Shown: one piece after another, positions 42,251-56,583 of the stretch
How the letters are laid out: each line of letters begins with the position of its first letter
How positions within the stretch are numbered: position 1 is the stretch's first letter
DNA from: a virus
Strand: one strand, 5' to 3'
Length of the DNA stretch: 64,000 bases
IMG/VR virus record: IMGVR_UViG_3300044712_001255
Coordinates: 62,001 to 126,000 of that record
Notes under the pieces: model-generated
Told to the model about the DNA's origin: nothing
Seen by the model: the letters and a program-made list of their open reading frames with translations, nothing else
The model's database searches: none
Made by a program: the position numbers and the translations under genes

Positions 42251-45200
42251 ATGCAGCGGACGTATAGCCGCGACGAGGTTCGAAAGGCCTCGCTCGCCTT
42301 TTTTTCTGGTGATGAACTTGCTACTGACGTCTATGTCAACAAATATGCGTTGAAAGACCATGAAGGAAACTACTATGAATTGTCCCCAGCGTATAGCGGG
42401 ATGCGCCTCGCAAAGGAATTTGCGAAGGCGGAGCTAAAGTACGCGAACCCAATGTCTGTAGAAGAAATCTACAGATTGTTGATGAATGTTGATACGCAAG
42501 AGCCACTTGAGGGTCTTGCGCTAGTGGAAGCAGCGTCAGGCTTTGGCCCAATAGTTCCACAAGGTTCTCCGCAATCTGCGATGGGCAACTTCTTACAGAT
42601 TCAATCATTGTCAAACTGCTTTGTGATTGATCCACCGCATGATTCTTATGGTGGCATTCTACACGCTGACCAGGAGCAGGCGCAAATAATGAAGCGTCGT
42701 GGAGGCGTGGGTATGGATCTTTCTACGATTCGTCCAAGGGGATTGCCTACGTCAAACGCTGCTATGACTACCGATGGTATCGGCGTGTTTATGCAACGTT
42801 TTTCGAATACATGTCGTGAAGTTGCGCAGGGCGGTCGTCGTGGCGCATTGATGTTGACTATTTCAATTAATCATCCTGAGATTGAGACGTTCATCAATAT
42901 CAAACGTGACAAGACGGCAGTGACGGGCGCAAACATATCAATTCGTTACACTGATGAATTCATGAGAGCTGTTGAGTCTGACTCAGAATACACGTTGCGA
43001 TGGCCGTGTGACGTGGACCCAGAAAATGCGAAGATAGTTCGAGTCGTTAGGGCTCGTGATATCTGGGACCAGGTGATCGATGCTGCCTGGTTCTCTGCCG
43101 AGCCAGGCGTTCTGTTTTGGGATGCTGCTCAGAAGTACACGCCCTCTGAGCGTTACGCATCAAAGGGATTTGCTGCAAAGTCAACCAATCCGTGCTTGAC
43201 GTACGATACAAAGCTTGCCGTTGCTGATGGTCGAGGGTATGTTGAAATTGGCGAATTAGCAAAAACCGGGTTTGATGTACCAGTCTACGCTGTAGATGAA
43301 TGTGGGAAGATTGTTGTTAAAATGATGCGCCACCCACGTTTGACAGGTGAAAAAATGCCTGTGTTTAAGGTGACTATCGAAGGAGGACACTCATTCAAGG
43401 CGACCGGTAATCATAAAATGATTATGCGTGATGGTACTCGAATTGAAGTGAAAGATCTTAAGACGGGCGATCAGCTTTGGTCAGGATTTAGAGCTAGTGG
43501 AAAATTTCATGAAGCCATAAAGGGATTACGTGCAACACAATCGCAAGACTATTATTGGATTAACGATTGTGAAAATGCGTCAAAACACTGGAAATCAGAA
43601 CATCGATTGATATGGGAATATCACAATCAAAGATCGTTGGAACAACATGAAGTAATTCATCACATTGACTTCAATGCACAAAACAATCATATTGACAACC
43701 TTCGTTGCATGTTGAAAGAAGATCATGACGCCTTACATACTGAACGTATGTGTGGAAACAACAATCCTATCTTTAAAATCAAGGCAAATCCTGTAAGATT
43801 TGCTGAATATTCTAAAACGTTAAGTGATGCAGTAAGCGGGTTGAATAATCCAATGGCGTATGCTGTGTCATCTACAGACGTCTATGCAGCAATTCTATCA
43901 TTAACAAAGCGATTGAATCGTCGACCGAGTTTGATAGAGTGGCAAAATGAAGCAAAGCAACTTGGAATGCCAATTAATTTGACAAAATTTCGTTGTAATG
44001 AGTTGGGTGGGTCATTTGCTGAACTTTGCCGTCGAGCCGCTACAGAGGTCGGTGTGTCAAATCCAGACGTCGACCCCAGAATGCAGAGAACATTGTGTGA
44101 AGCTGAGGCGATGGGATACATCGCAGATGTTATTGACAATGACGTTTATGTTGAAAGAACGTGTGAATGGTGCAAACAAGAATTTTTGTCACGTTTCTCT
44201 AGGAGAGAAATCGCATTTTGTTCACATTCTTGTTCAAATTTACATGCAAATCGCATCGCTGGAAAGAATACTAAAAGAACAGCGACTCTTCAAAAAATTC
44301 ATGCGAAGAAATCTGAAGAAACACGAAAAAAGATTTTAGACAAGTATACAAGCTTACGCTTTGAATTGGGACGTATGCCAAATCAGCCAGAACTTGTTCA
44401 GGCGTGTCGATCAAGTAACATACCATTTCGTTATGGATTGAAGAATGGGTTTAAAGATTGGCAAGATGTCACTCAAACTGCTCAATTGCACAATCATCGA
44501 ATTGTGTCTGTTGAGCCATGTGGATTTGAAGATGTCTATAACGGGACAGTTGATGATGAACATACATTGTGTATCGCCGTGGGTGATGAAAAGATAGAGC
44601 GTTTTGCAAAAAATGTAATGATATTATTGGGTTGCACACAATGCGGCGAAATTGTGTTATCTGCCTACGATAGTTGTCGTTTGCAGGTAGTTGATCTGCG
44701 TTGGTTCGTAAAGAACAAGTGGATGCCAGACGCAAAGTTTGATTTTGCGTATTTTGACAAGACTGTTCAAATCGCACAGCGATTGATGGACGATCTTGTG
44801 GACCTTGAAATTGAGGCAGTTGAACGCATCATCGCAAAGATAAACGCAGATCCAGAACCTGAATACATCAAGGCTCAGGAATTGTCGTTGTGGTCGAAGA
44901 TCAAAAACGCCGCTGCGCAAGGCCGCCGTACTGGTCTTGGTATCACTGCGCTCGGTGATACGCTTGCGATGTTGGGATTGAAGTATGGTTCACCCGAGTC
45001 GATCGCAATGACAGACGCGATTTACAGGGCACTTGCGCTTGCGTCATACAGATCGTCAGTGAAGATGGCGCAAGATCGTGGCGCGTTTCCAGCGTATGAC
45101 TATGAGCTAGAGAAGGATGATGAGTTCATCAATCGTATCATGAATTTGGACGATGATCTGCGCGCAGATTGGAAGAAGTTTGGGCGTCGTAACATCGCAA

Positions 45201-46441
45201 ATACGACTACCGCTCCAGTAGGCAGCATGTCAACGCAGCTTGCGTCAACGTCAGGTATTGAAAATGTGCCAGGACTAAAGTCGAAGCGTCGTAGGAAGAT
45301 TAATCCAAGCGATCCAGATGCACGCGTTGATTACACAGATGCATTGGGCGATAAGTGGCAATGGTACGATGTGCATCACAGAGGCCTACAACAGTGGATT
45401 GATGCAACTGGTGAGACAGACATCACAAAGTCTCCGTATTGGGGAACTACGATCAATGATGTTGATTGGGTGTCTGGCGTAAAGCTTCAGGCAGCTGCAC
45501 AGAAGTGGGTGTGCCACTCAATCTCTCGAACAGCGAATTTGCCCAAGGACGCTACTCATGAGCTCGTATCGCAGGTGTACTTAGAAGCCTGGCGCCACGG
45601 CTGCAAGGGCTTCACGGTGTATCGAGATGGCTCACGAGCAAATGTTCTGCTTGTTGGTGAAGAAGCCAAGGTATGGTTTGAAGGAATTCCTGACGATGAA
45701 CTGGTCGTCATGTTGAAGATCGCAGATCGATTCAAGCAACACATGCCTGACAAGTACCTGCAGACCGTTGAAGAGGCGAAGGTCGAGTTGCAAAGGCGTC
45801 AGCATGTTTCTGAAAGCCTACATGCTAACATGATTGATGACATCATCCCAACGTGGGTTCAGGCGTCATCTCAGGGACAGTTGAGCGCACCACGACGCCC
45901 CAAGCGTTTGCCTTGTCACATTCATCGTGTGAAGGTGATGGTGAACGGAGAAAGCGAAACGTATCTTGCGTTGGTAGGTCTCATGGAAGACAAACCATAC
46001 GAAATTTTCTGTGGGTTGTCAAAGCACGTTGATTTACCACGAAAGTTTGATAAGGGAACGTTGGTGAAGAATGGACGTAAAAAGCCAGGCAACATCGCAA
46101 CGTATAACCTCATCATTCCAACTGACGATGGTGAAGAGATTGTTTTCAAGGATGTAGTTGAACTGTTCGACAATCCAAATTACGGCTCTTTCTCTCGGGT
46201 GTTGTCGCTCGTATTGCGTCATCAAATTCCATTGCACTTCCTCGTTGAGCAGCTGCAGAAGGACAAGTACAGCGATATCTCTTCATGGGCTCGAGCAATT
46301 GCAAGAGTTTTGAAGCAGTACATTCCTGATGGCACGAAGGCTTCACTTGATAAGGTGTGCCCACAGTGCAATTCGGATTCGCTCATTTACCAAAGTGGAT
46401 GCCCGTCTTGCTCGAGTTGTGGGTGGACGAAGTGTGCGTAA
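42251..46441 (+). CDS. nrdJ: Class II (B12-dependent) ribonucleotide reductase interrupted by an intein
   Basis: 1,396 residues; about 913 after removal of the intein. RNR parts: SLSNCFVIDPP (first redox Cys), KRRGGVGMDLSTIRPRG, GRRGALMLTISINHPEI, the active-site region STNP^CGEIVLSAYDSCRL split by the intein, APVGSMSTQLASTSGIEN, and GCKGFTVYRDGSR near the end, typical of class II. A C-terminal zinc ribbon (CPQCNSDS, CPSCSSCGW) follows. It reduces ribonucleotides to deoxyribonucleotides using adenosylcobalamin. No nrdB-like partner is present, consistent with class II. Confidence 0.9.
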   Translation: MQRTYSRDEVRKASLAFFSGDELATDVYVNKYALKDHEGNYYELSPAYSGMRLAKEFAKAELKYANPMSVEEIYRLLMNVDTQEPLEGLALVEAASGFGPIVPQGSPQSAMGNFLQIQSLSNCFVIDPPHDSYGGILHADQEQAQIMKRRGGVGMDLSTIRPRGLPTSNAAMTTDGIGVFMQRFSNTCREVAQGGRRGALMLTISINHPEIETFINIKRDKTAVTGANISIRYTDEFMRAVESDSEYTLRWPCDVDPENAKIVRVVRARDIWDQVIDAAWFSAEPGVLFWDAAQKYTPSERYASKGFAAKSTNPCLTYDTKLAVADGRGYVEIGELAKTGFDVPVYAVDECGKIVVKMMRHPRLTGEKMPVFKVTIEGGHSFKATGNHKMIMRDGTRIEVKDLKTGDQLWSGFRASGKFHEAIKGLRATQSQDYYWINDCENASKHWKSEHRLIWEYHNQRSLEQHEVIHHIDFNAQNNHIDNLRCMLKEDHDALHTERMCGNNNPIFKIKANPVRFAEYSKTLSDAVSGLNNPMAYAVSSTDVYAAILSLTKRLNRRPSLIEWQNEAKQLGMPINLTKFRCNELGGSFAELCRRAATEVGVSNPDVDPRMQRTLCEAEAMGYIADVIDNDVYVERTCEWCKQEFLSRFSRREIAFCSHSCSNLHANRIAGKNTKRTATLQKIHAKKSEETRKKILDKYTSLRFELGRMPNQPELVQACRSSNIPFRYGLKNGFKDWQDVTQTAQLHNHRIVSVEPCGFEDVYNGTVDDEHTLCIAVGDEKIERFAKNVMILLGCTQCGEIVLSAYDSCRLQVVDLRWFVKNKWMPDAKFDFAYFDKTVQIAQRLMDDLVDLEIEAVERIIAKINADPEPEYIKAQELSLWSKIKNAAAQGRRTGLGITALGDTLAMLGLKYGSPESIAMTDAIYRALALASYRSSVKMAQDRGAFPAYDYELEKDDEFINRIMNLDDDLRADWKKFGRRNIANTTTAPVGSMSTQLASTSGIENVPGLKSKRRRKINPSDPDARVDYTDALGDKWQWYDVHHRGLQQWIDATGETDITKSPYWGTTINDVDWVSGVKLQAAAQKWVCHSISRTANLPKDATHELVSQVYLEAWRHGCKGFTVYRDGSRANVLLVGEEAKVWFEGIPDDELVVMLKIADRFKQHMPDKYLQTVEEAKVELQRRQHVSESLHANMIDDIIPTWVQASSQGQLSAPRRPKRLPCHIHRVKVMVNGESETYLALVGLMEDKPYEIFCGLSKHVDLPRKFDKGTLVKNGRKKPGNIATYNLIIPTDDGEEIVFKDVVELFDNPNYGSFSRVLSLVLRHQIPLHFLVEQLQKDKYSDISSWARAIARVLKQYIPDGTKASLDKVCPQCNSDSLIYQSGCPSCSSCGWTKCA
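43193..44641 (+). mobile_element. Intein with HNH homing endonuclease in the RNR active site
   Basis: About 483 residues (315-797 of the precursor). Block A: CLTYDTKLAVADGRGYVEIG; block B: SFKATGNHKMIMRDG; block F: VYNGTVDDEHTLCIAV. The nuclease is HNH type (EVIHHIDFNAQNNHIDNLRC), not the common LAGLIDADG, with a Cys4-like finger (CEWC, CSHSC) near residue 640. The right edge is uncertain: ending after ...LLGCTQ restores NPCGEI, the class II consensus, but gives a C-terminal Gln in place of Asn and no penultimate His; ending after ...ILLG leaves extra residues TQC. The insertion point is at the catalytic Cys. Confidence 0.85.
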
Positions 46442-49271: not shown

Positions 49272-50462
49272 ATGGTCAGGCGTCATCTTGTGTTAGAGGG
49301 CAATGTCGTTGATTTTGCTGCAAAGAAGGCCGCGAGTATTTTGCAAGCATATGCAGAAACTGGCGAGATGCCTTCGTTCGCAAACGCAAAGGAAGTAACA
49401 AACGTTGCCATTGCTCTACAACGAACGCCAGCGTGGGAGTCGCTAAAGCCCATATATTCTCGTATGCATACTGAATGGTTGAAGAACGCTGTTGATAGTG
49501 GGCTGCAATCTATGAAAGATGCTGACAAGAACATCACAAGTGCAGTTCAGCAATTACAACAGCAACACATGGACGCGTCTCGTAAGTTTACGAACATGCC
49601 GCTGCTCCGAGCTTACAACCTTGACTACAAACAAGTCACAGGTATTGAAGTGGCAGCGTACGCAGCACAGGACAACTTGTTTGGGTATTCTGAAACGCCT
49701 ATTGCAACACAAGAGTTTACTCGTAAGTGGTTGATTGACAACATTGATGAGATGCTACAACTAGCAGATCAGTTTGTTGATGACTGGCGTGGAATTATCA
49801 AAATGTATTGGGATAATCCATCAAGAAATGCGTTGAGTGGTCTTAAGGCTGCTGAACGTCTTGCATTTGAAGTAGAACGGCAACGTGACTCGCTCAGAGA
49901 TTTTAAGCGTAAGTTTGCGCAGGTAAGGGAATCACGACGAGCAGACACAAAGTTCGTAAATACTGTTGATCCCGGTGGCGTTGATCAAACGCCCGGCATG
50001 TGTGGTCCCGCTAGCCTAAAGTCAGTGTTTGATCGTTACGGCGTAGAAGTTGAACTTAAAAAGATTGCAAAAGCAGCAAAATCTACGGCAGAACGTGGTA
50101 CGTCACCTGAAAATATGGTCGCCGCAGCACGAAAATTTGGATTTGATGCTTCTGTTGAAGAAGATTCTGATGTAGGTCGTCTTAGAGAATTGCTTGATGA
50201 CGGCGTAACGCCAATCGTTGATTGGTGGAAGGATGACGACGGTCACTACAGTGTGGTCTCAGATATCAATGACTCAGAGATTGAGATTATGGATCCTGAG
50301 ACGGGTGATAAAAAGTGGACCACCCTCGAAGAATTTGAGCCGCTATGGTTTGACTTTGAGGCTGGAGACGCAGACCACAAGAAACCAAAGAATAAGGTGA
50401 TCATCATCGTAAGAGACGGTGGAGACACGCAAGAATTCAAGGCTAACGTTACGTTCGTCTAG
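49272..50462 (+). CDS. C39-like cysteine peptidase with long helical N-terminal region
   Basis: 396 residues from ATG 49272; earlier in-frame starts (from 49209) would lie in the terminator. Residues 1-~225 are helical and Gln/Ala/Lys-rich. Residues ~240-395 form a papain-like C39 fold: DQTPGMCGPASLKSVFDRYG with the catalytic Cys, a middle GTSPENMVAAARKFGFDA, and the His/Asp pair in DDGHYSVVSDINDSEIEIMD. Bacterial homologues cut double-glycine leader peptides; the phage role could be virion maturation or attack on a host target. No transporter domain is present. Confidence 0.75.
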   Translation: MVRRHLVLEGNVVDFAAKKAASILQAYAETGEMPSFANAKEVTNVAIALQRTPAWESLKPIYSRMHTEWLKNAVDSGLQSMKDADKNITSAVQQLQQQHMDASRKFTNMPLLRAYNLDYKQVTGIEVAAYAAQDNLFGYSETPIATQEFTRKWLIDNIDEMLQLADQFVDDWRGIIKMYWDNPSRNALSGLKAAERLAFEVERQRDSLRDFKRKFAQVRESRRADTKFVNTVDPGGVDQTPGMCGPASLKSVFDRYGVEVELKKIAKAAKSTAERGTSPENMVAAARKFGFDASVEEDSDVGRLRELLDDGVTPIVDWWKDDDGHYSVVSDINDSEIEIMDPETGDKKWTTLEEFEPLWFDFEAGDADHKKPKNKVIIIVRDGGDTQEFKANVTFV

Positions 50463-50498: not shown

Positions 50499-51455
50499 AT
50501 GAGAACTGTATTAATGTTGATGGGTCTTCCGGCCGCGGGTAAGTCAACCTTTGCTAAGGAGCTCCTGCGTAAGGAGCCGAAGCGTTGGAAGCGAGTCAAT
50601 CGAGATGACTTGCGTATTTTGCTTGATGGCGATAACTTCATCAAGGAAAATGAGGAGTTTGTGCGCAATGCACAGGAAGTCCTTATCAAGGAGGCCTTGC
50701 GTCAGGGGTTCGACGTTGTCGTTGACAACACTCATCTCATCTCATCCACCGTGAACAAGCTTCACAAGCTGCTTGAGTCTATTGGAGACGTGAAGGTCAT
50801 TCACAAGGCATTCAATGTATCGGTTGATGAGTGTATCGCTCGCAATGCAAAGCGAGAGGGACGTGCGAAGGTACCCGATAGCGTAATCTTGGGTATGGCA
50901 AAGGGAGCAGGCCTCAATAAGGGACGCAAGCTTCAGGACAAGGAGTTCTATTACCCGCCGCGCGGTTCCGAAGTCTCAGTTGTCACAAATGATCCAGCGC
51001 TGCCCAAGGCGATCATTTGTGACCTTGACGGAACTCTTGCGATCATGGGAGATCGTTCGCCATACGATGCATCTCAGTGTGATGTCAAGGACCATCCAAA
51101 TTGGCCCGTGATTGAGTGCGTCAAGGCAATGTATCGCAGGGGCGTGCATATCATCTTCATGTCTGGACGTGAAGTAAAGGATCGTGCGCCAACAATGCGA
51201 TTCATTGATCAGTGGGTTCAATGTGAACTGTCAAATCCTGATGGCGCTTCTGACTTGTTTCCAATTTCGTATGAGCTTCACATGCGCCAGACTGGTGATC
51301 AGCGAAAGGACGCAATCATCAAGCGCGAGCTATTCCAGGCTAACGTTGAAGGAAAGTATCATGTGATGTTCATTCTTGATGATCGCAATCAGGTCGTGGA
51401 GAATTGGCGTGCCATGGGACTGACAACTTTTCAGGTCGCAGAGGGAAATTTTTGA
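50499..51455 (+). CDS. Polynucleotide kinase / 3'-phosphatase (T4 PseT type)
   Basis: 318 residues. N-terminal kinase with P-loop GLPAAGKST (residues 9-17) and RVNRDDLRILLDG; C-terminal HAD phosphatase with IICDLDGTLA (near residue 175, DxDGT nucleophile) and a lid (ILDDRNQVVENWRAMG). It prepares cut RNA ends (5' phosphate on, 3' phosphate off) for ligation; T4 uses it to heal tRNAs cleaved by host anticodon nucleases. Its partner ligase is at 53257. Confidence 0.92.
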   Translation: MRTVLMLMGLPAAGKSTFAKELLRKEPKRWKRVNRDDLRILLDGDNFIKENEEFVRNAQEVLIKEALRQGFDVVVDNTHLISSTVNKLHKLLESIGDVKVIHKAFNVSVDECIARNAKREGRAKVPDSVILGMAKGAGLNKGRKLQDKEFYYPPRGSEVSVVTNDPALPKAIICDLDGTLAIMGDRSPYDASQCDVKDHPNWPVIECVKAMYRRGVHIIFMSGREVKDRAPTMRFIDQWVQCELSNPDGASDLFPISYELHMRQTGDQRKDAIIKRELFQANVEGKYHVMFILDDRNQVVENWRAMGLTTFQVAEGNF

Positions 51456-52539: not shown

Positions 52540-53166
52540 ATGACTAAACGCGATCTGTTGTGTATGCGATGGGAAAAGACGCTCTCTTTGTTCCCGAAAT
52601 ATCCAACAAAATCGTACAAGTTGTTTGATGAAATTGTTGTTGCGTATGAAGACAAGCATCGAGTGTACCATTCGACAGATCACCTGTTGCATGTGTTCGC
52701 AACGCTTGATATGTTCTTTCACGATGAGGAATTCCAACTAGAAATTGAACTTGCGTTGTGGTACCATGATTTTGTGTACGTTATCGGGTCCCAACATAAC
52801 GAAAAGAAATCAGCCAACATTGCTGGTGATAGGTTGTGTGGGTTGCTACCGCATACGTTGCATGTAGAACAGTTCATACTAAAAACGCAGCACGCTTACG
52901 AACCCACGGATAGACCTTCTAAGATTGTAGCTGACGTTGATCTTGCAATTTTGGGTGAATCACCAGAAATTTACGAGCACTACGAGCAGGCAGTTCGCAA
53001 GGAATACGCAATGTTTCACGATTATGCGTACAATCGTGGTCGTCGACAAGTTTTGCTTGACTTCTACAATCGTCCAAAAATCTTTCACACCCAAGAGATG
53101 ATCAATTTTGGGTATGAAGATCGTGCACGCATAAACCTTGCAAGAGTTCTCGGTAAGGCGGCGTAA
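52540..53166 (+). CDS. HD-superfamily metal-dependent phosphohydrolase
   Basis: 208 residues, full length for the predicted HD hydrolase family of COG4339 type: RVYHSTDHLLHV, ALWYHDFVYVIGSQHNEKKS, VADVDLAILGESPEIYEHYE and RKEYAMFHDYAYNRGRRQVL. The metal ligands H..HD..D are visible. Substrates for this family are not established. It lies directly upstream of the tRNA-like element and RNA ligase. Confidence 0.85.
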   Translation: MTKRDLLCMRWEKTLSLFPKYPTKSYKLFDEIVVAYEDKHRVYHSTDHLLHVFATLDMFFHDEEFQLEIELALWYHDFVYVIGSQHNEKKSANIAGDRLCGLLPHTLHVEQFILKTQHAYEPTDRPSKIVADVDLAILGESPEIYEHYEQAVRKEYAMFHDYAYNRGRRQVLLDFYNRPKIFHTQEMINFGYEDRARINLARVLGKAA

Positions 53167-53174
53167 GCCACAAA

Positions 53175-53254
53175 CGGAATGTTAGGCGTAGCAGCCCAAA
53201 GCTGCGCTGGGTCAGCCGTAGTCATTCGGCGCAGTTCAACTCTGCGACATTCCG
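53175..53254 (+). ncRNA. tRNA-like structure in the leader of the RNA ligase gene
   Basis: An acceptor-type stem CGGAATGT (53175-53182) pairs perfectly with ACATTCCG (53247-53254). T8/A9-like TA follows at 53183-53184. A perfect T-arm is present: stem CGCAG/CTGCG (53230-53234, 53242-53246) with loop TTCAACT, which fits the tRNA T-loop consensus. The 45 nt between do not fold into a normal D-arm plus a 5-bp/7-nt anticodon arm; the best parts are GGC/GCC near 53185-53196 and a GCTG/CAGC stem with 8-nt loop at 53201-53216. No CCA is encoded. It ends 2 nt before the ligase ATG. Either a decayed tRNA gene or a tRNA mimic. Confidence 0.5.
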
Positions 53255-53256
53255 CT

Positions 53257-54045
53257 ATGAAAGAGATTAGGAAATACGACCGTACACCACACATTCGTGG
53301 GTCACGTTTCCAAAATGGAGACCACGACATGGAGGCTGTGCCATGGGAGTTTCTACGCGGTAAGAACCTCGTAGTCGAAGAGAAGATCGATGGGTCAAAT
53401 TGCGGTATTTCTTTCGATAATGGGCAACTTCTGCTTCAGTCTCGTGGGCACTATCTGCAGGGAGGCCCACGCGAGAAGCAATTCACTATTCTAAAACAGT
53501 GGGCCAATTCAAAGCAAGAGGAATTGTACTGCGTCGCTGGCGAGCGTTACATCATCTACGGTGAGAACATGTACGCAAAGCACACTGTGTTCTACGATGC
53601 ATTGCCTCACTACTTCATGGAATTCGATGTCTATGATATGCAGGAGGGTGTCTTCTTAAGCACCCAGGCTCGACGACAATTGTTGTCTGCGATCAATGTA
53701 AGTTCAGTGCTCGTGCTCGCTGAGCGAAAATTTGACAAGCTCGATGAGCTACGAGCGCTCATAGGTCGCAGTAACTTCATCACTCCGGCGCGGTTACAAA
53801 ATTTGCGTATGGCGAGTGTGTTGGCAGGAGTAGCATTTGAAGATGCTTTGACGCACACAGACATGAATGAAAATATGGAAGGTCTCTACGTCAAGTGGGA
53901 GGAAGACGGGATCGTTAAGGGCCGTTATAAGTTTGTTCGTGATTCATTTACGAACGCAATTTTAGAGCAGGAGACTCACTGGCACGATCGACCCATCATC
54001 CAGAACATGCTGGTGCCGGGTGCATTTGAGAAGATGTTTGAGTAG
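53257..54045 (+). CDS. RNA ligase (nucleotidyltransferase type)
   Basis: 262 residues from ATG 53257; the frame extends upstream but through the tRNA-like element. The KxDG motif VVEEKIDGSNCG puts the adenylated Lys at residue 43. Further ligase motifs: YIIYGENMYAKHTVFYD (motif III-like), ENMEGLYVKWEE (motif IV) and KGRYKFVR (motif V). It is closest in layout to small Rnl2-like ligases. It would seal RNA prepared by the Pnkp at 50499. No ribosome site precedes the ATG other than the tRNA-like fold itself, so its translation may be controlled by that structure. Confidence 0.85.
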   Translation: MKEIRKYDRTPHIRGSRFQNGDHDMEAVPWEFLRGKNLVVEEKIDGSNCGISFDNGQLLLQSRGHYLQGGPREKQFTILKQWANSKQEELYCVAGERYIIYGENMYAKHTVFYDALPHYFMEFDVYDMQEGVFLSTQARRQLLSAINVSSVLVLAERKFDKLDELRALIGRSNFITPARLQNLRMASVLAGVAFEDALTHTDMNENMEGLYVKWEEDGIVKGRYKFVRDSFTNAILEQETHWHDRPIIQNMLVPGAFEKMFE

Positions 54046-55662: not shown

Positions 55663-56583
55663 ATGTCAATAGAAGAAGTGAAGTTTCAACATTATGCGTG
55701 GTCTCCCGAACAACGAGATGCGTTGAGGGATATTTTTCGTAATTGTTTGTCTTCTCATGAGGCTAAGACATTGTCAATTGCATTTGAAGCTGGTGGGATG
55801 ATTTGTGGTGGTGCAGCGAGGCGTATAGCTGCATCGCTGTTCAAGATCAATGCACGACCACGCACAAATCATGTTGATTACGTTTCATCATATTTTCGCG
55901 ACGGTCGTCATGACTCTTTCAATAAACCTGGCGATATTGACGTATTCTTCCCAACAGATGAGTCAGTGACGCGATTTTGGCGCAACTTCTCGGTGTCGAG
56001 CATTCCAAGCGTTGCGCATGTCTCTGAATCTGTGTTGGGATATGCACGAAACATTCGCATCAACACAGGTGTGAACATTCAGGTAGTAAAACCTGTGTGT
56101 GGGTCTACTGTTGAACATCAGTTGGCGTCATTTGACATCTACAATGCAATGATTGGGTTGAATGCGCATAAGGCGATCATTCCTGACGAGTGGCATTACC
56201 TTGAACAACATTCAATGTTGCATGTTCACAGATTTCAGACTGATTATCAGCTGAAACGCATCATCAAGTGGATGACGCGGCAACAATACGAGTCGCTTTC
56301 TCCCAAAACGGCGTCAGAAGTTGGCACCTATGCGTTTGAGTTGATGGAACGTATCAAGGAGGCTGATGGTCTTCCAACTCCTTGGAAGGACGTAAAAATT
56401 ACTGTCGATACAGTACGTCATGCGCTTTATCCGTTGCTTACGCACCTCACGAATGACCAGTTACTTTTGTTGTCAACCGTCATGATGACTCGAGATAGCT
56501 ACGGCAATATCGGCGCCAACCCGGCAATGGATATAATTCAGGATCGATCAAAGCAAACAATTTGTAGTGCAAATAGTGACTAA
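55663..56583 (+). CDS. Predicted nucleotidyltransferase-fold protein
   Basis: 306 residues from ATG 55663. The pattern GGMICGGAARRIAASLF, then NKPGDIDVFFPT (GG..R plus DxD), is that of the Pol-beta-like nucleotidyltransferase superfamily, in the form used by several unnamed phage proteins. The middle (VQVVKPVCGSTVEHQLASFD-like) and the helical C-terminal half are compatible with a tRNA-nucleotidyltransferase-like layout, but catalytic identity is unproven. Close to the RNA repair cluster, an RNA-end activity is an attractive guess only. Confidence 0.55.
   Translation: MSIEEVKFQHYAWSPEQRDALRDIFRNCLSSHEAKTLSIAFEAGGMICGGAARRIAASLFKINARPRTNHVDYVSSYFRDGRHDSFNKPGDIDVFFPTDESVTRFWRNFSVSSIPSVAHVSESVLGYARNIRINTGVNIQVVKPVCGSTVEHQLASFDIYNAMIGLNAHKAIIPDEWHYLEQHSMLHVHRFQTDYQLKRIIKWMTRQQYESLSPKTASEVGTYAFELMERIKEADGLPTPWKDVKITVDTVRHALYPLLTHLTNDQLLLLSTVMMTRDSYGNIGANPAMDIIQDRSKQTICSANSD

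Follow-up and report, generated by a model that had tools for sequence, protein, structure and literature searches.

A tRNA-like element abutting the RNA ligase start codon of an uncultured jumbo phage: a possible processing signal resembling T5 RNA1 and RNA2

What is a structure resembling one half of a tRNA doing directly before the start codon of a phage RNA ligase gene? The locus lies in a 64,000-nucleotide stretch of DNA (the window), which corresponds to bases 62001-126000 of a 324,468-bp IMG/VR record of an uncultured jumbo phage. Genes for tail sheath, UvsX and NAMPT were found in this jumbo tailed phage, which carries 47 tRNAs according to ARAGORN and a tmRNA (record positions 49473-49828, tag ANDNATVLRAAA).

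The tRNA-like element spans 80 nt on the plus strand (53175-53254). An earlier inspection of the letters, here termed the sequence-only reading, had described a perfect 8-bp acceptor-like stem and a consensus T-arm with a TTCAACT loop. Both are present with all pairs being Watson-Crick: C53175-T53182 (CGGAATGT) pairs with A53247-G53254 (ACATTCCG) at 8 of 8 positions, and the T-arm, which fits the GTTCRANYC consensus, has a perfect 5-bp stem placed directly against the acceptor. The tRNA mimicry seen in this half of the fold was thus borne out, while the length of 8 bp turned out to be nothing special, the eighth pair being a -1:73 pair that is possible in 29 of the phage's own 45 canonical tRNAs. 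The element has no encoded CCA. As was also claimed, the middle does not form a normal anticodon arm; in the MFE structure two hairpins, of 8 bp and 4 bp, replace the D and anticodon arms. The final base of the second hairpin (53230) doubles as a T-stem base, and by eye the CCCA of the first hairpin loop could pair with TGGG at 53209-53212 to give a possible pseudoknot.

Features of the element and of the adjoining genes (window positions)
Feature	Position	Strand	Remark
Pnkp-type polynucleotide kinase-phosphatase (PF25109 HAD_PNKP)	50499..51455	+	1.7 kb upstream of the element
HD-type phosphohydrolase (phrog_19425), TAA 53164-53166	52540..53166	+	8 nt separate it from the fold
Acceptor-like stem, 5' strand CGGAATGT	53175..53182	+	C53175 is position -1
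TA matching tRNA U8 A9	53183..53184	+	read directly from the sequence
Hairpin 1, 8 bp GGCGTAGC/GCTGCGCT, loop AGCCCAAA	53185..53208	+	replaces D/anticodon arms; from folding
Hairpin 2, GCCG-TAGTCATT-CGGC	53215..53230	+	placed like a variable arm; from folding
T-arm CGCAG-TTCAACT-CTGCG	53230..53246	+	GTTCRANYC consensus
Acceptor-like stem, 3' strand ACATTCC and discriminator-like G53254	53247..53254	+	from the sequence
RNA ligase (PF09414)	53257..54045	+	ATG lies 2 nt past the fold; lacks a Shine-Dalgarno
Nucleotidyltransferase-like protein, GDIDVFFP motif	55678..56583	+	in the block common to relatives

The whole element has an MFE of -35.6 kcal/mol (z = -3.5 relative to dinucleotide shuffles), and 1 of 200 shuffles was equally stable. 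From base composition, the number of such structures expected by chance in a 324-kb genome is 0.0009 for 13 Watson-Crick pairs at a spacing of 20-110, and 0.004 for 12 pairs; a looser descriptor found 0.3 structures per simulated genome. No second T-arm with five Watson-Crick pairs and a TTCRANY loop occurs in the 64-kb window, whichever strand is read.

The genes around the element form the Pnkp/ligase RNA repair setting that had been recognised earlier, with Pfam matches to PF09414 (RNA_ligase) and PF25109 (HAD_PNKP). The distance of 2 nt between the fold and the ligase ATG was confirmed (G53254 and ATG at 53257), and this start agrees with the N termini of the ligases in related phages. The 90-nt gap between the HD gene and the ligase gene is almost entirely taken up by the element, the other genes of the block overlapping or being separated by at most about 22 nt. 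A terminator scan gave a single weak minus-strand match, close to the shuffled mean. The Shine-Dalgarno match of the ligase (2/6) was the poorest among 51 starts examined, tied with one other start, and a clear Shine-Dalgarno sequence was missing from other window genes too. The region from -90 to +15 of the ligase start was the third most stable of 48, i.e., not the single most structured one.

We found no indication that the element is a tRNA in the ordinary sense. ARAGORN called no tRNA at this position, and a scan of 53000-53450 against Rfam gave no family match, including RF00005, up to E=10; the Infernal check that the sequence-only reading had proposed therefore came out negative. The covariance model of RF00005 comprises D, anticodon and T arms, and the element falls outside it: the acceptor, U8 A9 and the T-arm are common to the element and the canonical phage tRNA genes, whereas a recognisable D or anticodon arm is missing. 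Anticodons CAA, CCA and CAU, picked out by eye in various loops, were discarded as each violates U33 or stem rules. The bacterial Y RNA (YrlA) is a tRNA mimic encoded near Ro60 and beside RNA-repair genes. The element resembles it as a tRNA-like RNA adjoining RNA-repair genes, but the phage has no TROVE/Ro60 gene and Rfam gave nothing at E<=10, and this identity was rejected.

Relatives of the locus were sought with the Pnkp protein, which retrieved six viral contigs at 53-58% identity. Two of these, with genomes of 309 and 340 kb (here G001 and G002), are jumbo phages that have 50 and 60 ARAGORN tRNA/tmRNA genes, and both contain the same block of Pnkp, ligase-phosphoesterase-methyltransferase genes. 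In the three syntenic relatives, i.e., both jumbo phages and a third one, the ligase gene begins within the ORF before it, and the tRNA-like element was absent upstream of the ligase in 3 of 3. By retention in syntenic relatives the element is hence not a conserved cis-regulatory RNA, and the absence of the fold from homologous phages, named by the sequence-only reading as an outcome that would speak against it, was partly observed. The HD gene was not found in the two jumbo relatives, and a search with the HD protein gave no viral relative. No comparable element was present near the ligase in the best 80 bacterial loci fetched, which encode ligases 47-58% identical. Exact and degenerate patterns of the element gave no match, or chance coding matches, in IMG/VR, and blastn against the phage collection gave short partial matches only. 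The best of these, in Pseudomonas phage phita81A (E=0.005), was dismissed; it overlaps annotated CDSs and no tRNA-like feature is annotated there. Since no homologue was found, the covariation support suggested earlier has nothing to compare.

By sequence, the closest known kind to the element is represented by RNA1 and RNA2 of phage T5, which are labeled as "tRNA-like stable RNA with unknown functions" (GenBank AY543070). Both were recovered by a descriptor in which an acceptor stem and a consensus T-arm frame a middle unlike that of a tRNA, and the element has this structure as judged from its sequence. In T5, as here, the acceptor is stacked directly on the consensus T-arm, the middle is not that of a tRNA and the phage is rich in tRNAs; the TTCAACT loop in the core of RNA1 is identical to that of the element. 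The T5 RNAs differ in being located inside a tRNA cluster, in their annotated length of about 125-144 nt and in not abutting a start codon. Gaps between tRNA and CDS in T5 are about 16-34 nt, compared to 2 nt between the element and the ligase. The same descriptor also picked three odd elements at 243.4-243.8 kb in the phage and several in the two jumbo relatives.

We proceeded to analyze how often canonical tRNAs lie immediately before a start codon, using 150 tRNAs (47 from the phage, 48 from G001 and 55 from G002) and ORFs of at least 80 aa. An ATG was found 1-5 nt past the ARAGORN 3' end of 9 of the 150 tRNAs, a small number of cases resting on predicted start codons and giving modest statistics, where 2.2 were expected from the average count in 5-nt bins lying farther downstream (Poisson p=5e-4). 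With an ORF cut-off of at least 50 aa the expected mean was 3.3 and p=0.0075. None of 126 tRNAs in the control phages T5, XacN1, Atu_ph07, KVP40, and phiCbK had an abutting start (Fisher p=0.004), a comparison to be read with the CCA encoded in 121 of these tRNAs, which itself blocks the first downstream positions. CCA is encoded in 0 of 47 tRNAs in the phage, 28 of 48 in G001 and 6 of 55 in G002, and two tRNAs of the relatives with encoded CCA have an ATG 1-2 nt past the CCA. Comparison of tRNA listings showed that the ARAGORN end of CCA-less tRNAs is one base beyond the discriminator; the distance from the element to the ligase is therefore +2 on the same scale. Several abutting ORFs correspond to real genes (CTP_transf_like at E=1e-12, HNH at E=4e-7, C2H2/HNH, S24-like). 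One abutting ORF, next to the tRNA-Leu at record position 283224, has an SD-like GGGAGGGG within the tRNA 3' strand, and leaderless status is therefore not needed for all abutting ORFs. The occurrence of canonical tRNAs abutting ORF starts in this phage group, which the sequence-only reading had left out of account, points to RNA processing and not to ligase binding.

The acceptor/T half is the part of a pre-tRNA that is read by RNase P and tRNase Z. We propose that the element is tRNA-derived and non-decoding, belongs to the T5 RNA1/RNA2 class and most likely acts as a cis-acting processing signal. Its intact acceptor/T half would be recognised, and presumably cleaved, by RNase P and tRNase Z. 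Cuts at its two ends would free the RNA and let the ligase message begin 2 nt before the AUG, and this message, without a Shine-Dalgarno sequence, would be translated as a near-leaderless mRNA. The logic would be that of mitochondrial "tRNA punctuation" or of a "t-element", and canonical tRNAs of the same phages are similarly placed before ORFs. Punctuation and t-elements are known in mitochondria, with putative RNase P/Z cut sites and very short 5' ends (PMC8003010). Leaders of <10 nt count as leaderless, and such mRNAs are translated in bacteria and phages, lambda cI being the classic case (PMC4681348). As in mitochondrial punctuation and plant mitochondrial t-elements, a tRNA or a structure resembling one adjoins an ORF directly, in this case immediately before its start; in the organelle systems cleavage has been shown, whereas for the phage element it is the arrangement and the sequence that are shown.

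A processing signal would agree with the Watson-Crick-perfect acceptor and T stems around a free middle, the enrichment of abutting starts, the real genes among them, the lack of CCA, the poor Shine-Dalgarno match of the ligase and a ligase start region that ranks among the more structured ones. Against it, compact packing could contribute to the nine abutment cases, and three syntenic relatives have the ligase without such an element. With modest statistics and predicted start codons behind it, we give the explanation a confidence of about 0.4. That tRNAs and non-decoding tRNA-likes serve as mRNA punctuation in this jumbo-phage lineage, being excised by tRNA-processing enzymes to yield near-leaderless mRNAs including that of its own RNA ligase, is a wider and more tentative suggestion.

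The element could instead be a stable tRNA-like RNA with a function in trans, e.g., by engaging tRNA-acting enzymes or nucleases as a decoy or sponge, so that its position at the ligase would reflect co-expression and not cis control. This would fit the annotation of T5 RNA1 and RNA2 as stable and tRNA-like, their acceptor and T-arm descriptor in common with the element, the further odd tRNA-likes at 243.4 kb and the location within an RNA-repair block. Lacking an anticodon arm, however, the element is therefore not a mimic for anticodon nucleases; there is no known target and no conserved homologue was found, and we consider a function in trans rather unlikely. An equally doubtful explanation is a tRNA gene wreck, in which a recent insertion or recombination swapped the D/anticodon part and the remainder persisted by chance. 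The absence from the syntenic relatives and a tRNA-rich genome with several sub-threshold tRNA matches are in its favour. The remains of slow decay would look different, though: all 12 acceptor and T pairs of the element are Watson-Crick (13 counting the -1:73 pair), compared to a mean of 10.6 of 12 in the 45 canonical tRNAs of the phage, only 6 of which have all 12, so that the element is better paired than 39 of them. The stable middle within the fold and an intergenic space almost exactly the size of the element likewise argue against a wreck. Of the decayed tRNA suggested by the sequence-only reading, gradual decay is accordingly disfavoured because of this pairing, while the middle may have been replaced recently.

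The same reading had raised autoregulation by binding of the ligase to its own mRNA. In such a scheme the ligase (or Pnkp) would attach to the fold and thereby block translation of the message. A fold ending 2 nt before the ATG would, if unprocessed, occlude initiation. Yet a conserved site of this ligase family is at odds with the lack of the fold in all syntenic relatives and near the 80 bacterial homologues, and autoregulation seems highly improbable.

If the element is a processing signal, a mitochondrial mode of gene expression would move into phages, and there would be a reason beyond codon supply for keeping some phage tRNAs and tRNA wrecks. The long-unexplained tRNA-like RNAs of T5 would gain a testable role, and expression of a tRNA-repair enzyme would be tied to the tRNA-processing machinery. 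Punctuation by tRNAs would be novel in a phage, as far as the searched literature shows.

The odd elements at 243.4-243.8 kb are tandem tRNA-likes (record 243421-243522, 243580-243714, and 243719-243792) of 74-135 nt with aberrant middles. Their acceptor and T-arms are intact or nearly so, and two of the three are preceded by spacers ending in GGAAACAA. Two tRNA-likes of the relatives (G001 258778-258935 and G002 91133-91208, both on the minus strand) have an Arg-type anticodon hairpin (CTTCTAA/CTTCGAA) at the site of the D-arm, followed by a TAAYYGGACACATG-like sequence, which is possibly a rearranged tRNA architecture common to the two phages. A GGC/GCC helix can be drawn in the element that would match their Arg hairpin within a 3-bp helix, but it is not part of the MFE structure and we do not claim kinship.

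The GDIDVFFP-motif protein encoded beside the RNA repair genes had no Pfam match; it is kept in two related phages and, by its sequence, probably resembles pol-beta nucleotidyltransferases. A tRNA with a UUA anticodon (ochre suppressor type) is located far from the tRNA cluster, at record positions 313007-313079 on the minus strand. Window positions 42251-46441 hold a 1396-aa ribonucleotide reductase-like ORF with an apparent intein insert, as seen by eye.
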